Source: a virus
Direction: 5' to 3' (one strand)
IMG/VR virus record: IMGVR_UViG_3300007352_000008
Location: 1-43,535 of that record
DNA length: 43,535 nucleotides
Position 1 is the stretch's first letter. Each line of letters opens with the position of its first letter. This document shows, in pieces, positions 1,234 through 15,258 of the stretch. Both the position numbers and the translations under genes were made by a program. The notes beneath the pieces are model-generated. The model was given only the letters and a program-made list of their open reading frames with translations, did no database searches and had not been told where the DNA came from.

Positions 1234-4200
1234 ATGGCAATAAAATGGGAAAAGGAGAAGGAATCAAACGGAATCCAGTGGGATTCTAAGGATTTGTCGC
1301 GCTCACAAGCCGTCTTAGGTTCTTCGCAAAGAATCCTCGACACCATTTTGGGTGCGAGTAATTTGGTTAATCAGACAATTGGACGCCCTTTTATTGATAT
1401 TGCGGCTATGCCTGTACAGGCAGGAGCTAAGAAATTAGGACTTCCTGACCCATACGCTGATAAAGCACTTGGTGGAGTGGATGTTGCTTCAGTAGATGAA
1501 CCTCTTAGAAAGGCAGGCTCTGCTGGAGAGCTAGCTTCGTATGCGTTCCCCTTCAAGACAGCGGCTACCGGACTAGCGAACTTTGCGAAACCCCTTTTAG
1601 GTAAGGCTGCAGGTTTATTTGGAAACGTAGGCGCTGGCGCTGGTGCAGGATATGGAGTTGATGTCGCTATGGATATGGCCGGAGGAGAACAAGATATTGG
1701 AGAAGTCTTAAAGCCCGGGGCTGCTACTGCAATTGGAGGAGGATTACCTGCTGTAGGCGCGATTGGAGGTGCGGTACGGAACGCTATTCCAAAACTCCTC
1801 TCATACACTTCAGATGTACCAGAGGAGGCATTTTCTATGATGCTCCAAAGAAGGGCTCCTGTTATGAGTGCAGTTCAATCAGGAGTTACCCCCGAGCAAT
1901 CCCTTCAAGCATCACAACAAGCTGTACGAGGATTACGCAAGAAGCTCTCCCAAGAATGGGAGGAATCGGCACAAGCTATTTATGATGAGTTCGCCGATAA
2001 AAGTATTCTGTTTAGTGGTTCACTAGAAAGAAAATTGCACTCTGTTGCTACAGAGTTTGGATTAGACTTACCCCAGAATCTAAAGAATGTCTCTGCTAAA
2101 GAGACTATGGATTTACTTAAAAAGATTGGTGAGCTTCCAAGAGGCGTTCTAACCTTGTCTCCCAAGGGGGCTGTTGTTCGTGAGGTGCAAGAAGGAATAA
2201 AAGACAAAGCCATTGAGGCCTTCGGAGGAAAGAAAGGCTCTCTTGCAACGCTGTATAAGAATTACTCCACGAAGAAAGGTATATTTGATGCTGCTAATGA
2301 CATTGTTAAAGCATATTCAACTGGTAAACCAATACAACAAAGTTCTGCATTAGGCAGGTTAATGGCGGTGTTTAACGAGAACAAGGGCGCATACCTTGAT
2401 GCTATTCTTGACCTTGAGAGAGAAACGGGAACTGACTTGCTATCTAATGTCATAGCCACAAAGATTTCTCCTGTTCTTCCATCTGCATCTTCTGCAATGA
2501 CTGCTTCTGGGACTTTAAGTTCGGCTAAATCCCTTACTGATAAGGCTCTTAACTTATTATTACTACCTCTTACTTCTCCCCGTACTGCTGCATTTCTTGC
2601 TAGAGTTGCCGGAAGGATGAAGATTCCTCCATTACAAAGGACTCCAGGGGACGATATCTTAGACCGTTCTAAACAGATTATCCAAGAAGAAGGAGGAGAA
2701 GGAGGTTTTGTGAGAATCCCAAAAGCTAAGGGGGGCACCCCTAAAGATGCGCCAACCTTACAATCTCTGACCAGAATGGCAGAGGAGGTCAAAATTCCTA
2801 CCGTTTCAAGACGGTATATAGAAGACCTCTCTAATCGTCCTGATATTAAACAGCCTGAAAGAGACTTGTTACGAAAGTTCTTGGCAGACGAAGGAGACGA
2901 AGTAGACGTAGCTAACTTCGCCAACAAGATAAAGACAGAGTTGTTGCCTTTGAAACGAAACGCGCCCAAGGTAGGAGACAGCGCAAGAGATGCGGGTATT
3001 ACGAGTACACGTTACGAGAACGTAACACTTCCTAGTGAACAACGAGGACCAGTATCCAATTACTCCGAGCATGTATATGAGAGTCCTATAGAAACAAGCG
3101 CCGGAAAAGTTCACTTCGGTAATTCGTACGACGGTGCTAATAAGGGCTACTTCGCACATACCCGTATAGAGGATGTAGGTTCAATGCACGAAAATGCCCT
3201 AACGGGTGCAAGTAAAACATATGCAGGAGATACACGCCGCGTCATCGAAATCCAATCCGACCTTTTTCAGAAAGGGAGGTTGGAAGACGAGATGCCCAAA
3301 ATCGGAGAAGGTGCGAACCGCGCAGGTGCAGAGCAAATTGCTAAAACAGACCCTAAATCATTTGCCACCAAAGAACTCGCACGCGAAGCAGAGTTGAAGA
3401 AACTCGAACCCTACCGCAACACTTGGTGGGAGCGCATCGTGCGTGAAGAAGTAAAACAAGCCGCCAAGGACGGCAAAACTAAGCTCCAATTCCCTACCGG
3501 AGAAACAGCTATGAAGATTGAGGGATTGGGAATACCAGAAGGAGATAGATTTCAAATCGTTGGCGAGTCTGTTGCTGATGTTGGCCGTAACAATGCGGGG
3601 TTGGCAAGAAATATGGGAAATCTTACTGCCGACAAGTTAAAAGTTGGCACGGTATACACAACCGACCCGACTGTATACGGACGTAACAATTACCTAAATG
3701 CCGATACGCAACACCAGTGGGTCATCACCGACGTACTAGGAGATGGGAAGTTTAAGGCGATGCCGAAAGAACATATTGATTCCTATGCTGAATCCGCTGG
3801 CCTGAATAATCTTTCTACCGAAGAACTACTAAACTATGCCGAGCATCATGCAACTCAAAATTTCTGGGGTTCTAAGGAAACCTTCGACATCTCCGGCAAA
3901 GTAGACACCAACAACCCTATCTACAAGTTCTACGAGAAAGACGTGCAGAAATACCTCACCAACAAATACAAAGGAAAGGTAATCACTGACCCACAGGGTG
4001 TGAAGTGGGTAGAGATAGACGTACCAAAAGAGGCGAAACGATTGCCTGTAGAGGCGTTTGGTGTGGGAGCAGTTACGTTACCAGGAGATAAAGGAATCTT
4101 TGAAACGGAAGGAAATCCCCCAACTGATTTTGAACCAACCCCTGAAGATGTTGAAACTAGAGTTAACGAGTTCCGAGCTTCACAAGGGTTGCCAAGTCTT

Positions 4201-4689
4201 AGAATGAATCCAGAACTTTCTTCCTACGCTCAAGAGAGGGCAGAAGAAATGGCTTCTAGTGGGGTCTTTTCTCACTACTCTCCTGGAGAGACAGAGCAAA
4301 CAGCTATACAAGGTGAAGATTTTGAAGGATTGGAAAACGTATACGAAAATATAGCGTGGGGAGAAAAAGGTTTTTCTGATGCTACTTCGACATCTAAGAC
4401 ATGGGAAGAATCAAAAACAGGACATCGAGAAATACTTTTGAATCCTAATATTTCAGAACTCGGCACAGGAGTTGCAAAAGGAAAATATCGTGGTAAAGAC
4501 GCGTTTTTCGTAGCACAGATGTATGGTATTCCTTCTATCCGTCCTTCTGCTGCGACTATTGAAAGAAGCAGAGTTCCAGAAGAAGGAAAGGCAATTTTAT
4601 CTCTTAGAGTATTACCCATTTCTAATTTCGAGACGCGCCCTATGGAAACAGATATGGCCGCCTCAACTCCTAGAACTCTACAGAGGTAA
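1234..4689 (+). CDS. large virion/ejection protein with polyvalent-protein region and C-terminal CAP domain
   Basis: 1151 residues. The N-terminal part has an Ala/Gly-rich hydrophobic stretch at about residues 95-190 that could interact with membranes, followed by helical sequence. Residues about 594-676, with the signature RRVIEIQSDLFQKGRLE, and segments near 730-760 and 896-931 match the pattern of phage large polyvalent proteins (known family trait: large multi-domain proteins delivered with phage DNA). Residues about 968-1098 form a CAP (SCP/PR1-like) domain: the His of FSHYSPG, YENIAWG and the His of GHREIL are all present. It follows the 772-aa gene by 5 nt and precedes the lysis genes. 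I infer an ejected protein that may act at the cell envelope; the CAP activity is unknown. No Shine-Dalgarno is visible before the ATG. Confidence 0.8.
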   Translation: MAIKWEKEKESNGIQWDSKDLSRSQAVLGSSQRILDTILGASNLVNQTIGRPFIDIAAMPVQAGAKKLGLPDPYADKALGGVDVASVDEPLRKAGSAGELASYAFPFKTAATGLANFAKPLLGKAAGLFGNVGAGAGAGYGVDVAMDMAGGEQDIGEVLKPGAATAIGGGLPAVGAIGGAVRNAIPKLLSYTSDVPEEAFSMMLQRRAPVMSAVQSGVTPEQSLQASQQAVRGLRKKLSQEWEESAQAIYDEFADKSILFSGSLERKLHSVATEFGLDLPQNLKNVSAKETMDLLKKIGELPRGVLTLSPKGAVVREVQEGIKDKAIEAFGGKKGSLATLYKNYSTKKGIFDAANDIVKAYSTGKPIQQSSALGRLMAVFNENKGAYLDAILDLERETGTDLLSNVIATKISPVLPSASSAMTASGTLSSAKSLTDKALNLLLLPLTSPRTAAFLARVAGRMKIPPLQRTPGDDILDRSKQIIQEEGGEGGFVRIPKAKGGTPKDAPTLQSLTRMAEEVKIPTVSRRYIEDLSNRPDIKQPERDLLRKFLADEGDEVDVANFANKIKTELLPLKRNAPKVGDSARDAGITSTRYENVTLPSEQRGPVSNYSEHVYESPIETSAGKVHFGNSYDGANKGYFAHTRIEDVGSMHENALTGASKTYAGDTRRVIEIQSDLFQKGRLEDEMPKIGEGANRAGAEQIAKTDPKSFATKELAREAELKKLEPYRNTWWERIVREEVKQAAKDGKTKLQFPTGETAMKIEGLGIPEGDRFQIVGESVADVGRNNAGLARNMGNLTADKLKVGTVYTTDPTVYGRNNYLNADTQHQWVITDVLGDGKFKAMPKEHIDSYAESAGLNNLSTEELLNYAEHHATQNFWGSKETFDISGKVDTNNPIYKFYEKDVQKYLTNKYKGKVITDPQGVKWVEIDVPKEAKRLPVEAFGVGAVTLPGDKGIFETEGNPPTDFEPTPEDVETRVNEFRASQGLPSLRMNPELSSYAQERAEEMASSGVFSHYSPGETEQTAIQGEDFEGLENVYENIAWGEKGFSDATSTSKTWEESKTGHREILLNPNISELGTGVAKGKYRGKDAFFVAQMYGIPSIRPSAATIERSRVPEEGKAILSLRVLPISNFETRPMETDMAASTPRTLQR

Positions 4690-5695: not shown

Positions 5696-5995
5696 ATGGA
5701 ATTACTCGCCTCACTCGTAAATGGTGTGATTGCTCTCATCGTAACAGCAGTACCACTCATTGTATTGAGTAACTGGTTCATGGCAGGTATTAAGAAGTTC
5801 ATGGATAAAGCGGAAACTACAATGTGGCTTCGCGGTATCTTGGTTCTTTTCTCTGCTGTAGCCGTGATAATTTCCGCCTCTCTTACAGGAGAAGCAGTAG
5901 ACTACAATCAGGTTTCTGACCTCGTTGTAACAGGTCTCACAATCCTTGTAACTGCTGTAGGCGCACACCTGTCTTATAAAGTGATAAAGGCATAG
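5696..5995 (+). CDS. holin-like membrane protein
   Basis: 99 residues with three hydrophobic segments (about 5-27, 44-63 and 74-96) separated by short charged loops, including a Lys-rich loop after the first. This matches a class I-type holin topology. It is the last gene of the plus-strand late operon, directly after the M23 endopeptidase and just before a strong terminator. No Shine-Dalgarno precedes the ATG. I recognise no specific holin family. Confidence 0.7.
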   Translation: MELLASLVNGVIALIVTAVPLIVLSNWFMAGIKKFMDKAETTMWLRGILVLFSAVAVIISASLTGEAVDYNQVSDLVVTGLTILVTAVGAHLSYKVIKA

Positions 5996-6010
5996 CCTTC
6001 TCACAACACA

Positions 6011-6036
6011 AAGACCCCGCTTGATTGCGGGGTCTT
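6011..6036. terminator. bidirectional terminator hairpin between convergent operons
   Basis: A perfect 10-bp stem (AAGACCCCGC with GCGGGGTCTT) and a 6-nt loop. Three further pairs form outside it if A6010 is bulged. It lies 15 nt after the holin gene and between convergent plus and minus genes, so it can end both transcripts. The T-rich tail is weak on both strands. Confidence 0.85.
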
Positions 6037-6086
6037 GTGCTATGAAAGAAAACGGTACATTGAACCAATGTAACTCGGGTAAGTTA

Positions 6087-6284
6087 CTACAACTGATTAC
6101 CACGATTTGATAACAAATACACTCTCTCCTTTTTGTCAGGAGTACGTGGGGTATAGCACTCTATATATTTCTTACCCTCATTATCTATATAAACTTTATT
6201 TGGTTTTCTATCGCCCATCATTAGTAGCCATTTCAATTCTTCAGTTGTAAGGTCTGATTCAGTCAATTCTCTTGTTTGAGCCAT
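6087..6284 (-). CDS. hypothetical 65-aa protein
   Basis: The last gene of the minus-strand region. I start it at the ATG at 6284; a longer reading to 6419 would run through the terminator hairpin at 6304-6338 and into the GC-rich gene, with a Pro/Ser-rich extension that looks non-coding. The protein is charged, begins with a helical TEEL-type stretch and then a beta-like segment (YIDNEGKKYIECY). No family is recognised. It has no clear Shine-Dalgarno, unlike the GC-rich genes upstream of it. Confidence 0.6.
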   Translation of the reverse strand: MAQTRELTESDLTTEELKWLLMMGDRKPNKVYIDNEGKKYIECYTPRTPDKKERVYLLSNRGNQL

Positions 6285-6771: not shown

Positions 6772-6916
6772 TGCCGTTACTCCGTTTGTAGCGCTGTTCG
6801 AATTGTGCGTCGAAGTTCGCGCAATCTTCGCCGCAGTACTCCAACCCGTTCATGCGCCTCCCTTTCAAGAAGGGTTTACCGCACGTCGGGCAATACTTTT
6901 GCGTTCCTCGTATCAA
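6692..6916 (-). CDS. small zinc-ribbon protein with TTG start
   Basis: 74 residues with CPTCGKPF near the N-terminus and YCGEDC near residue 30, a two-Cys-pair zinc ribbon. The start is TTG at 6916, chosen because AAAGGAGG lies six bases upstream; the ATG nearer the SD runs into a stop after two codons. The C-terminal 26 residues overlap the next gene in another frame and look less constrained. It belongs to the GC-rich cassette. Function is unknown; nucleic-acid binding would be typical of such ribbons. Confidence 0.6.
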   Translation of the reverse strand: MIRGTQKYCPTCGKPFLKGRRMNGLEYCGEDCANFDAQFEQRYKRSNGNELEVNGTTLHRMPVHREWGRSPRTR

Positions 6917-6921
6917 GGCAT

Positions 6922-6930
6922 TCCTCCTTT
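6922..6930 (-). promoter_or_regulatory. strong Shine-Dalgarno for the TTG-start zinc-ribbon gene
   Basis: The minus strand reads AAAGGAGGA, six bases before TTG at 6916. This is one of very few strong SD sites in the window and decides the start of the 74-aa gene. Confidence 0.75.
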
Positions 6931-7171
6931 CTTTTTGAGAATTACGGGCAACTGAATTGAATGGAGCCGAAAAAGAGTTACTCCCAACGGGTAACGACAG
7001 AACTAGATTCCTCTAGCTCCACTCCTTCAATCCATGTATCCGTAATCCTCTTATATCAAAGAACTTCAATCAGTATACTCCTTTCTTCATGCCTACTCAT
7101 CCCTACACGTTTCCCCAGATTTTGGGCATTATTCTTCTCGTAGATAATTCCAAGACCGGCATGTAGGGAGG
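6931..7171 (-). other. noncoding stretch upstream of the GC-rich cassette
   Basis: No convincing ORF on either strand; the 60-codon plus frame starting at 6961 has no support. A small hairpin lies at 6977-6995 (GTTACTC with GGGTAAC, one T-G pair). Possible minus-strand -10-like hexamers (TATACT, TATAAG) occur around 7048-7081 but lack a convincing -35. It probably holds the promoter and 5' leader of the cassette. Confidence 0.45.
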
Positions 7172-14033: not shown

Positions 14034-14375
14034 ATGCGCATTGCTTTTGATGTTGACGATACTCTTCTAATCCCTAGTGTCGCTTCTGGATTTGGACGTG
14101 ATACTCCTAACTATGAAGTAATAGCTATATACAAATGGTTCCAATCCCAAGGGCATACGATGATAATTTGGAGTGGTAGTGGTGTTTATTGGGCTAAAAC
14201 ATGGGCAGAAAAGTTCGGACTCACAGCTGACGAGTTTCCGGTTAAAGGGAGTGTACCAGTAGACATTGCCTTCGATGATTGCGATGTTGAGCTAGGAACT
14301 GTGAATGTTCGGGTAAAGAGAATTAACAATTCAATCAGCAGGGAAGAGTGGAATCGTACGAAGCGGCCATCATAG
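14034..14375 (+). CDS. HAD-superfamily hydrolase-like protein
   Basis: 113 residues. HAD motif I is at 5-10 (FDVDDT, nucleophile D6 and acid D8), motif II Ser/Thr in IIWSGSG (about 47-49), a Lys at 71, and motif IV acids in VDIAFDDCD (77-82). It lacks a cap domain and is short, as are phage HAD proteins that act on small phosphate esters such as nucleotide or sugar phosphates. It is the last gene before the structured noncoding region. A role in nucleotide metabolism is the usual guess; a role with the sugar genes is possible. Confidence 0.8.
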   Translation: MRIAFDVDDTLLIPSVASGFGRDTPNYEVIAIYKWFQSQGHTMIIWSGSGVYWAKTWAEKFGLTADEFPVKGSVPVDIAFDDCDVELGTVNVRVKRINNSISREEWNRTKRPS

Positions 14376-14376
14376 G

Positions 14377-14385
14377 TGGTATAAT
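14377..14385 (+). promoter_or_regulatory. extended -10 promoter (TGGTATAAT) upstream of the structured RNA
   Basis: TG-N-TATAAT, a perfect extended -10 element, begins 2 nt after the HAD stop. No good -35 is seen, as is tolerated for extended -10 promoters. The expected start is near 14391, just before the long stem. Confidence 0.6.
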
Positions 14386-14390
14386 CCCTT

Positions 14391-14601
14391 TCAGCACATT
14401 CCAGCGGAGGAGAGTTGATGGGGGATTCAATGGGAGCGTGGCGCGGCTTGTTCCCGTGGTAATTTTTTGTCCCCGCGAGTTGAGACCACGGCAAAAACTC
14501 GCATTCCCCACCAACCCTTCTCTTAAAACATGAGAGGAACCTATACACATGTTGGGGAGTATTTTCATCTCTTCGGAGGTGCTCTTTGTTTTCTCCCCAA
14601 C
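14391..14601 (+). ncRNA. candidate structured noncoding RNA with pseudoknot
   Basis: No ORF on either strand looks coding. A long-range stem pairs 14406-14426 with 14503-14523: 21 positions with only two A-C mismatches and three G-U pairs. Inside it, 14454-14460 pairs with 14485-14491 (CCGTGGT/ACCACGG, 7 bp) and 14475-14481 pairs with 14496-14502 (GCGAGTT/AACTCGC, 7 bp). These interleave as an H-type pseudoknot. Downstream, 14551-14559 pairs with 14593-14601 (GTTGGGGAG/CTCCCCAAC), enclosing ATCTC-TTCG-GAGGT, a cUUCGg tetraloop hairpin. I do not recognise an Rfam family. The 5' end is inferred from the promoter and the 3' end from the last helix. It could be a regulatory RNA, a ribozyme or part of a replication origin. 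Confidence 0.6.
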
Positions 14602-14613
14602 AGGTGTGTGGGT

Positions 14614-14622
14614 TTATCCACA
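14614..14622 (+). promoter_or_regulatory. DnaA box (TTATCCACA)
   Basis: A perfect match to the strongest bacterial DnaA box, located in the loop of a possible hairpin in noncoding DNA about 125 nt before the replisome-organizer-like gene. An 8/9 match (CTATACACA) lies at 14541-14549. It is a candidate element of the replication origin. Confidence 0.5.
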
Positions 14623-14630
14623 ACCCCCAC

Positions 14631-14659
14631 TTGTGAAGATAGCGTGAAGAATTTATACT
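14631..14659 (+). promoter_or_regulatory. sigma70-type promoter before the replication gene
   Basis: TTGTGA, a 17-bp spacer, then TATACT. The expected start is about 14666-14668, at or next to the ATG of the 24-aa ORF, so transcripts from it would be nearly leaderless. Confidence 0.6.
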
Positions 14660-14667
14660 GTTCGGAT

Positions 14668-14742
14668 ATGAGCGTGGGACTCAAAAGTTATTATGACTGC
14701 ACAACTTGCCCACGCTCGTTGTGTGGTCGTAATAATTTTTGA
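14668..14742 (+). CDS. possible 24-aa Cys-containing peptide
   Basis: Starts right after the promoter at 14631-14659 and ends 3 nt before the replication gene. It has CTTC and a third Cys near the end. Its start lies in the 5' arm of an 11-bp stem (14668-14678 with 14709-14719, one T-G pair), so it may be a leader peptide or simply part of a structured leader. Confidence 0.35.
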   Translation: MSVGLKSYYDCTTCPRSLCGRNNF

Positions 14743-14745
14743 TGT

Positions 14746-15258
14746 ATGGCACAGAAAAGAATGTTTGACCGTTCAATTGTAGACAATGAACGCTTTGTCG
14801 ATATGCCAATGTCCTCAAAAGGACTGTATTTTCTTTTGGGCATGTCTGCAGATGACGAAGGATTTGTGAGTGCGAAAGCGGTATTACGAGTACATGGAGG
14901 GACTGATGACGACCTTAATATCTTACTAGCCAAGGGTTTCTGCATCCGTTGTCCAAGCGGAATCATCGTTATTACTCACTGGCGTAAGAATAATTGGCTT
15001 GATAGCAGGCGTTTAAGGAGAACTGAATACACGGAAGATAAGAAATGGCTCGCATTGACAAGTAATGGCGATTATGTGCTTAGCAACGGCTTAGCCAGTG
15101 TAGAGGAGAGTAGAATAGAAGAGAATAGTAAAGCTACCGCTAAAATACAAAATCCCTTTGAAGGCAGGGAACTCACTAAAGAAGAGAGACTCACTAGACT
15201 CCGAGAGATTAAGGAAAGTTCGCGTAAGGTTGCCGACTCGAAAAAACTTGACTCTTAA
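14746..15258 (+). CDS. phage replisome-organizer/replication-initiation-like protein
   Basis: 170 residues. The N-terminus (MAQKRMFDRSIVDNERFVDMP, then SSKGLYFLLGMSADDEGFV and GIIVITHWRKNNW) matches the winged-helix N-terminal domain of phage replisome organisers, which bind the origin and load host helicase. The C-terminal part is short, helical and charged (LTKEERLTRLREIKESS) and lacks a recognisable DnaD or DnaC domain. Upstream noncoding DNA carries a DnaA box and strong structure, consistent with an adjacent origin. No helicase, primase or polymerase is seen in the window, so host enzymes must be recruited. Confidence 0.75.
   Translation: MAQKRMFDRSIVDNERFVDMPMSSKGLYFLLGMSADDEGFVSAKAVLRVHGGTDDDLNILLAKGFCIRCPSGIIVITHWRKNNWLDSRRLRRTEYTEDKKWLALTSNGDYVLSNGLASVEESRIEENSKATAKIQNPFEGRELTKEERLTRLREIKESSRKVADSKKLDS

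Follow-up and report, generated by a model that had tools for sequence, protein, structure and literature searches.

What does a 370-base stretch of phage DNA that folds far better than chance do for the gene next to it? The question is raised by positions 14376-14745 of the viral IMG/VR record IMGVR_UViG_3300007352_000008, which is complete at 43,535 bases and is here called the window. The stretch is flanked by a small uncharacterised open reading frame (ORF; 14034-14375) and by the gene for a DnaD-like helicase loader (14746-15258), whose named relatives are the replication initiation protein or replisome organizer of the Lactococcus phages Tuc2009 and ul36 (46.7% identity). An initial annotation had described a structured RNA built around a long stem and a pseudoknot at 14406-14523. 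Our analysis identified the best-supported element elsewhere, at 14670-14742, which that annotation had missed and which ends 3 nucleotides (nt) before the start codon of the loader gene. From sequence analysis, we give about even chances to the reading that this element is a cis-acting 5'-leader RNA folding switch of the replisome-organizer mRNA.

The element consists of two interleaved helices whose strands follow one another in the order A-B-c-A'-B', nearly free of linkers: S1 (A with A'), a helix of 9 base pairs (bp), and S2 (B with B'), a helix of 25 consecutive pairs including four G-U, with A' lying inside the S2 loop. In the window the layout reads 5'-GAGCGUGGG-AC-(25 nt)-UUG-CCCACGCUC-(25 nt)-UGU-AUG, which gives a loop c of UUG, no linker between A' and B', and 0-2 nt between A and B, within the range that defines the architecture (linkers of 0-3 nt, c of 1-6 nt). 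The element also lies between a -10 hexamer and a start codon on the same strand: TATACT of the candidate promoter P2 ends 10 nt before S1, and the AUG follows 3 nt after S2. Given this distance to the -10, strand A is predicted to lie nearly at the 5' end of the transcript.

The folding of the region agrees with this location. The 370 nt fold at -147.4 kcal/mol, versus -105.7 +/- 5.6 kcal/mol for dinucleotide shuffles (z-score = -7.44; 0 of 100 shuffles as stable), so the comparison with shuffled sequence proposed by the initial annotation came out in favor of a structured region. This excess applies to the strand shown here and is unevenly spread, since 14660-14748, absent from the structures first listed, reaches a z-score of -7.11, a UUCG hairpin region at 14530-14620 reaches -5.73, and 14400-14530, which holds the stem and pseudoknot first described, only -2.65 (2 of 200 shuffles equally good). 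A search of Rfam 15 with the window and three canonical loci, at curated and permissive thresholds, gave no match at the gathering cut-off (none for the window, for which this search had been suggested); the best sub-threshold match was an unrelated plant microRNA model (E = 0.16).

By eye, the upstream regions of related loader genes have the same layout with differing sequences. A descriptor screen for the A-B-c-A'-B' architecture, controlled with dinucleotide-shuffled sets, confirmed this. Across 1.05 Mb of related phage contigs, this screen yielded 18 matches versus 3.0 per shuffle; in this first data set, requiring an S2 energy of -22 kcal/mol or lower left 11 matches, compared with 0.0 per shuffle. 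Additional elements came from further data sets. At loose settings the screen returned 23 matches versus 20.0 in shuffles, and only strict matches, matches to a sub-consensus and matches at gene starts were kept. Hand curation, which removed matches inside genes or lacking a start codon or the sub-consensus, left 30 elements. One match to the descriptor, at 2087-2159 of locus L243, is a cluster of GGTAACG repeats that resembles a short-repeat array and not a leader element.

Outside the sub-consensus, UUA-GCUUUGYG ... U-ACU-CRCAAAGC-G, alignable sequence is absent from the 30 elements. This sub-consensus holds in 8 of the 30 and is not the defining feature; a pattern scan with it gave 15 matches, several of them spurious, and recovered new true members. 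The window belongs to the elements that lack it, carrying GAGCGUGGG/CCCACGCUC and UUG in place of an S1 of GCUUUGYG/CRCAAAGC with the loop ACU. What is conserved is the architecture. S1 measures 7-12 bp and S2 12-33 bp, B starts at most 3 nt after A, loop c has 2-4 nt in 24 of 30 elements (most often ACU), and the linker between A' and B' is 0 in 27 of 30. The S2 pair that closes the loop is U-G in 18 of 30, and each of the six outer S1 positions shows all four Watson-Crick pair types across the elements. Upstream, 20 of 30 elements have a -10-like hexamer that agrees with the consensus at five or more of its six positions, and this hexamer often ends 10-13 nt ahead of S1. Coordinates in the window are collected in the table below.

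Features of positions 14376-14745 and of the downstream gene, in window coordinates
Feature	Position	Strand	Remark
Extended -10 TGGTATAAT (P1), upstream promoter candidate	14377..14385	+	1 match, 1.5 expected by chance
H1, 21-position stem enclosing an H-type pseudoknot	14406..14523	+	pairing real, comparative support absent
H2, 12+10-bp stem with inner cUUCGg hairpin	14537..14615	+	strong fold, relatives not found
DnaA box TTATCCACA, perfect consensus	14614..14622	+	56 nt upstream of S1, directly upstream of a -35-like hexamer
Promoter candidate P2, TTGTGA - 17 nt - TATACT (-10 at 14654-14659)	14631..14659	+	consensus match only; predicted start ~14666
S1 5' strand (A), GAGCGUGGG	14670..14678	+	complementary to A'
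S2 5' strand (B), 25 nt	14681..14705	+	pairs with 14718-14742; z-score -7.11
Short loop c, UUG (commonest form in the 30 elements: ACU)	14706..14708	+
S1 3' strand (A'), CCCACGCUC, in the S2 loop, abutting the S2 3' strand without linker	14709..14717	+	linker 0 nt in 27/30 elements
S2 3' strand (B')	14718..14742	+	ends 3 nt before AUG
Gene proposed to be controlled: DnaD-like replisome organizer / helicase loader, 170 amino acids	14746..15258	+	PHROG 5708, E 3e-42

All 30 compiled elements are oriented in the sense of the gene, and the few accepted antisense matches mostly mirror a sense match. Across the elements, S2 contains 81 G-U wobbles versus 10 A-C/C-A juxtapositions. Together, the sense bias and the excess of G-U over A-C indicate that the folding molecule is the RNA of this strand.

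A loader gene lies downstream of 11 elements besides that of the window. Other elements precede NUMOD4/HNH homing endonuclease genes (loci L002, L044, L194, L220, and L208), endonuclease-like ORFs (L340 and L343), a YopX-like gene (L184), and small ORFs, and the genes downstream share no common metabolic theme. The element is not a fixture of every NUMOD4/HNH gene, since nearly all of 79 such loci lack it. As a separate observation, the loader homologue of L069 (start region 2978-3020) seems to begin either with a codon other than ATG (ATA before GCACAGAAACGAATG) or with an internal ATG.

Among the contigs compared, the element precedes the loader gene only where Shine-Dalgarno (SD) sites are scarce. 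Element-bearing contigs have SD motifs at 0-25% of starts, with no excess over control positions, versus 53-81% in related Bacillota phages. Of 25 SD-poor contigs, 9 have an element no farther than 130 nt from the loader start; none of 12 intermediate or 61 SD-rich contigs does, and the background rate is 0.0016 per 130 nt. A 30-bp version with a 4-nt linker between A' and B' and a U run lies before a NUMOD4-type endonuclease frame at 3821-3907 of L010; this phage uses SD sites, and the layout may thus reach beyond SD-poor hosts or have arisen repeatedly.

As to the hosts, two loader homologues, each preceded by a looser version of the element, are present among phage genes in a 0.7-Mb genome (G050) from a phylum of mostly 0.4-1.4-Mb genomes with weak SD usage (19% versus 7% in the control). 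These data are consistent with Patescibacteria as hosts. The element is not a leader used throughout such hosts: in 260 kb sampled from genomes of the host-like phylum, the one match was weak and lay inside a gene, and the sub-consensus pattern was not found in 287 genomes of that phylum.

The neighborhood of the replication gene has a further constant feature. Among the 10 replication-gene elements whose upstream sequence was long enough, 8 have a DnaA box with no more than one mismatch in the 250 nt upstream, always 55-82 nt ahead of S1. Random placement gave a mean of 1.15 of 10, and none of 2000 draws reached 8. At other elements, the box was found in 2 of 19, one of them a duplicate record of a replication-gene locus. 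Since the box is found near replication-gene elements and is rare elsewhere, it belongs to the promoter of the replication gene and not to the RNA element, where it probably adds control of transcription by the host DnaA. The fixed place of a DnaA box next to this promoter suggests that the initiator of the host's own replication is a signal that these phages sense.

The same box bears on the proposal that the region is a DNA element, namely part of the phage replication origin, in which the DnaA box acts together with hairpins extruded as single-stranded DNA and RNA plays no role. The perfect box and its conserved position near replication genes would suit an origin, as would a gene that encodes a replisome organizer and three strong hairpins lying next to one another. 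However, the S1/S2 layout recurs before endonuclease and other genes that mostly lack the box, is oriented with the gene, and tolerates G-U while A-C is rare, as expected for RNA of one strand; we consider the proposal very unlikely. An origin RNA had been among the roles first suggested for the region. Given the DnaA box, the surrounding DNA may have an origin role, but copies of the conserved element are also found before genes that have nothing to do with replication.

How could such an element act? From these data we infer a switch, its direction, and translation as its target. Transcription from P2 would begin a few nucleotides before S1. S1 would pair once A' has been transcribed, and S2, which forms later and is more stable, would displace it. 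Full S1 and full S2 would be mutually exclusive in one molecule, because A is joined directly to B and A' to B'; this is our own geometric argument from zero linkers. S1 together with the 8-17 bp of S2 nearest the loop would be feasible if the distal part of the B strand serves as a linker, and with S1 (8-9 bp) stacked on S2, a 3-nt c could then span the deep groove of S1, which would amount to a circularly permuted H-type pseudoknot with the 5' end of the RNA where the two stacked helices meet. When S2 is complete, it would reach to within 3 nt of the AUG and cover the start region; when S1 or the pseudoknot forms instead, both the start region and the A+U-rich distal arm would be released. 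The switch would thereby tune translation of the replication protein.

Fold predictions are consistent with this sequence of events. In all 30 elements, the minimum free energy structure of the RNA up to the end of A' contains S1, and S2 prevails once the RNA is complete. The mean unpaired probability from position -18 to the AUG is 0.49 with full S2 versus 0.69 with distal S2 open (0.18 versus 0.51 in the window), and the G-C fraction of S2 is 0.51 near the loop versus 0.35 in the distal part (permutation p = 0.003).

Several points weigh against the folding switch. The 30 elements were found through these very pairings and then curated, which makes pair counts alone circular; independent support for S1/S2 is given by the shuffle control, the position and the orientation. 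Among SD-poor contigs with a loader gene, 16 of 25 have no element, and among 18 portal relatives, three other elements lie in different genes. The steric exclusion of S1 and S2 is argued from A-form geometry and not from a three-dimensional model. In most elements, S2 is ahead by several kcal/mol, and S1 may be only transient. Finally, in several elements the AUG lies 17-25 nt past S2, and the predicted accessibility barely changes or falls (L005, L006, L007, L139, L054, and the minus strand of L002).

The position of S1 near the predicted 5' end also suits a different role, in which a 5'-terminal permuted pseudoknot or long stem protects the mRNA by blocking decay that depends on the 5' end (pyrophosphohydrolase, 5'-3' exonuclease), with little effect on translation. 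In the simple class of elements S1 lies a few nucleotides from this end, and the proposed fold would set the end at a helix junction enclosed by loops, reminiscent of exonuclease-resistant RNAs. A protector would serve unrelated genes equally well, which is what we observe. Nevertheless, it would require neither that S2 end 1-25 nt before the AUG nor that S1 and S2 compete, and about a fifth of the elements have a small hairpin between the -10 and S1, several with an extra 16-30 nt there. We regard protection as unlikely.

Transcription attenuation, with S2 as an intrinsic terminator and S1 as an antiterminator that delays it, draws on the elements at L007, L011, and L012, where S2 ends in or precedes a U run. 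A U tract is missing after most S2 helices (for example L009, L044, L085, L220, and the minus strand of L002), so that the elements do not qualify as intrinsic terminators and attenuation is ruled out as a general mechanism; moreover, S1 and S2 share no bases, unlike the parts of a classical antiterminator. We judge it quite unlikely.

Returning to the folding-switch reading, the question is how it relates to the structures first described. The pairings noted at 14406-14426/14503-14523 are present, with 19 of 21 positions paired, two mismatches and three G-U, as are the perfect and interleaved 7-bp helices CCGUGGU/ACCACGG (14454-14460/14485-14491) and GCGAGUU/AACUCGC (14475-14481/14496-14502). 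The 9-bp stem at 14551-14559/14593-14601 is likewise perfect and forms part of a longer stem (H2) with 10 bp at 14550-14559/14593-14602 and 12 bp at 14537-14548/14604-14615. The pairings of 14376-14745 are thus confirmed as observations, and their interpretation is partly supported. The extended -10 said to precede them is also there, but such a pattern is expected about 1.5 times by chance at this length and composition. With a -10 preceding both, H1 and H2 may be real structures.

That the whole of 14376-14745 is one free-standing noncoding RNA with the H1 stem and pseudoknot as its core is a different matter. In its favor are the pairings themselves, a strong -10 upstream, at 14377, and the rarity of both features, each of which arises in about 2% of shuffles of the sequence concerned: a 19/21 stem in 2% of shuffles of the 370 nt, and two interleaved 7-bp helices in 2% of shuffles of a 145-nt stretch (0.2% for the 76-nt interior). 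However, this part has the weakest folding excess, and its fold is not shared among the 38 related contigs or all fetched loci, where no relative of similar sequence was found for 14406-14523. Searches for the region by DNA similarity in phages and in these same contigs and loci gave no real relative either, a weak 18-nt match in G033 lying inside a coding gene and being attributed to chance, and exact-stem pattern scans recovered no true relatives of the window's own S1 or of H2. The part that is conserved is a leader of the downstream protein-coding mRNA, and a free-standing RNA is highly improbable. H1 is not a further copy of S1/S2, as its helices are nested or set apart by long loops. A structured regulatory RNA beside the replication gene is supported, but its comparative support sits at 14670-14742, outside the structures then listed; the strongest finding adjoins the first structure and does not equal it. 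Nothing indicates the ribozyme that had also been offered, and Rfam gave no match for it.

Some features of this region stand apart from the argument. The sequence GAGCGUGG is present at 14434-14441, inside H1, and again at 14671-14678, and the S2 loop (14709-14717) could pair with either copy, a possible long-range alternative. A 70-codon ORF with no family match (14530-14742, plus strand) begins 6 nt past H1, spans H2 and S1/S2, and stops 3 nt before the loader start; if it is translated, ribosomes would unwind S2, with possible coupling to the loader gene. An antisense ORF of 145 amino acids (14186-14623, minus strand), also without family match, overlaps H1, H2, and the upstream gene. Elsewhere, the window has terminase, portal, endopeptidase, and sugar-modification genes, and relatives of its portal (54-72% identity) come without the loader gene. 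A 1151-amino acid protein (1234-4689) has a C-terminal CAP / sporulation-protein-like domain, unusual for a phage, and the largest minus-strand folding excess outside 14376-14745 is found at 5851-6200 and 6851-7100.

S1/S2 is apparently a new phage leader RNA architecture that has not been described before. A more specific proposal, which we put forward as possible but doubtful, is that the extreme 5' end of the mRNA forms an undescribed H-type pseudoknot, circularly permuted, that competes with a start-site hairpin. Phages whose Patescibacteria-like hosts make little use of SD sites would employ it to time the expression of replication and homing endonuclease genes, coupled at the replication gene to a DnaA-controlled promoter. 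The carriers' genes lack an SD signal, a setting in which the choice and control of the translation start are poorly known. The element would serve as a marker for such viruses and offers a well-defined RNA, about 75 nt long, with two states and open to mutation.

Among known systems, replication proteins of phage T4 are controlled by leader structures, gene 32 by a pseudoknot and gene 43 by a hairpin, and the homing endonucleases I-TevI and Aeh1 mobE by RNA structures at the start site (PMC3014915). These are the same two gene classes, and the parallel supports a folding switch in the S1/S2 leader. The T4 gene 32 leader is alike in that the mRNA of a phage DNA-replication protein has a pseudoknot in its 5' leader and an A+U-rich start region after it (PMC3014915). 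However, the T4 pseudoknot is of the classical H-type, lies 67 nt before the start and is bound by the gene product, whereas S1/S2 has the zero-linker A-B-c-A'-B' order, with S2 reaching the start codon. With its different strand order and its position against the start codon, the element is not a gene 32-type operator; it also precedes non-replication genes, so that the product of any one gene cannot serve as a ligand shared by all. The start-site structures of I-TevI, Aeh1 mobE, and T4 segB similarly lie close to the AUG of HNH or other homing endonuclease genes and are thought to limit translation (PMC3014915). Those structures sequester an SD site, whereas carriers of S1/S2 show hardly any SD signal, and, unlike them, the S2 helix bears an interleaved competitor, S1. 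Alternation between two folds is known from the pseudoknot operator of E. coli rpsO (S15), a case of ribosomal-protein autoregulation with no similarity in sequence or layout to S1/S2. Phage leader pseudoknots that regulate translation are rare, and according to a 2010 review, there may be no viral example used in translational autoregulation other than the type of T4 gene 32 (PMC3014915). If our reading is true, S1/S2 would be a second kind, widespread and with a different strand order.
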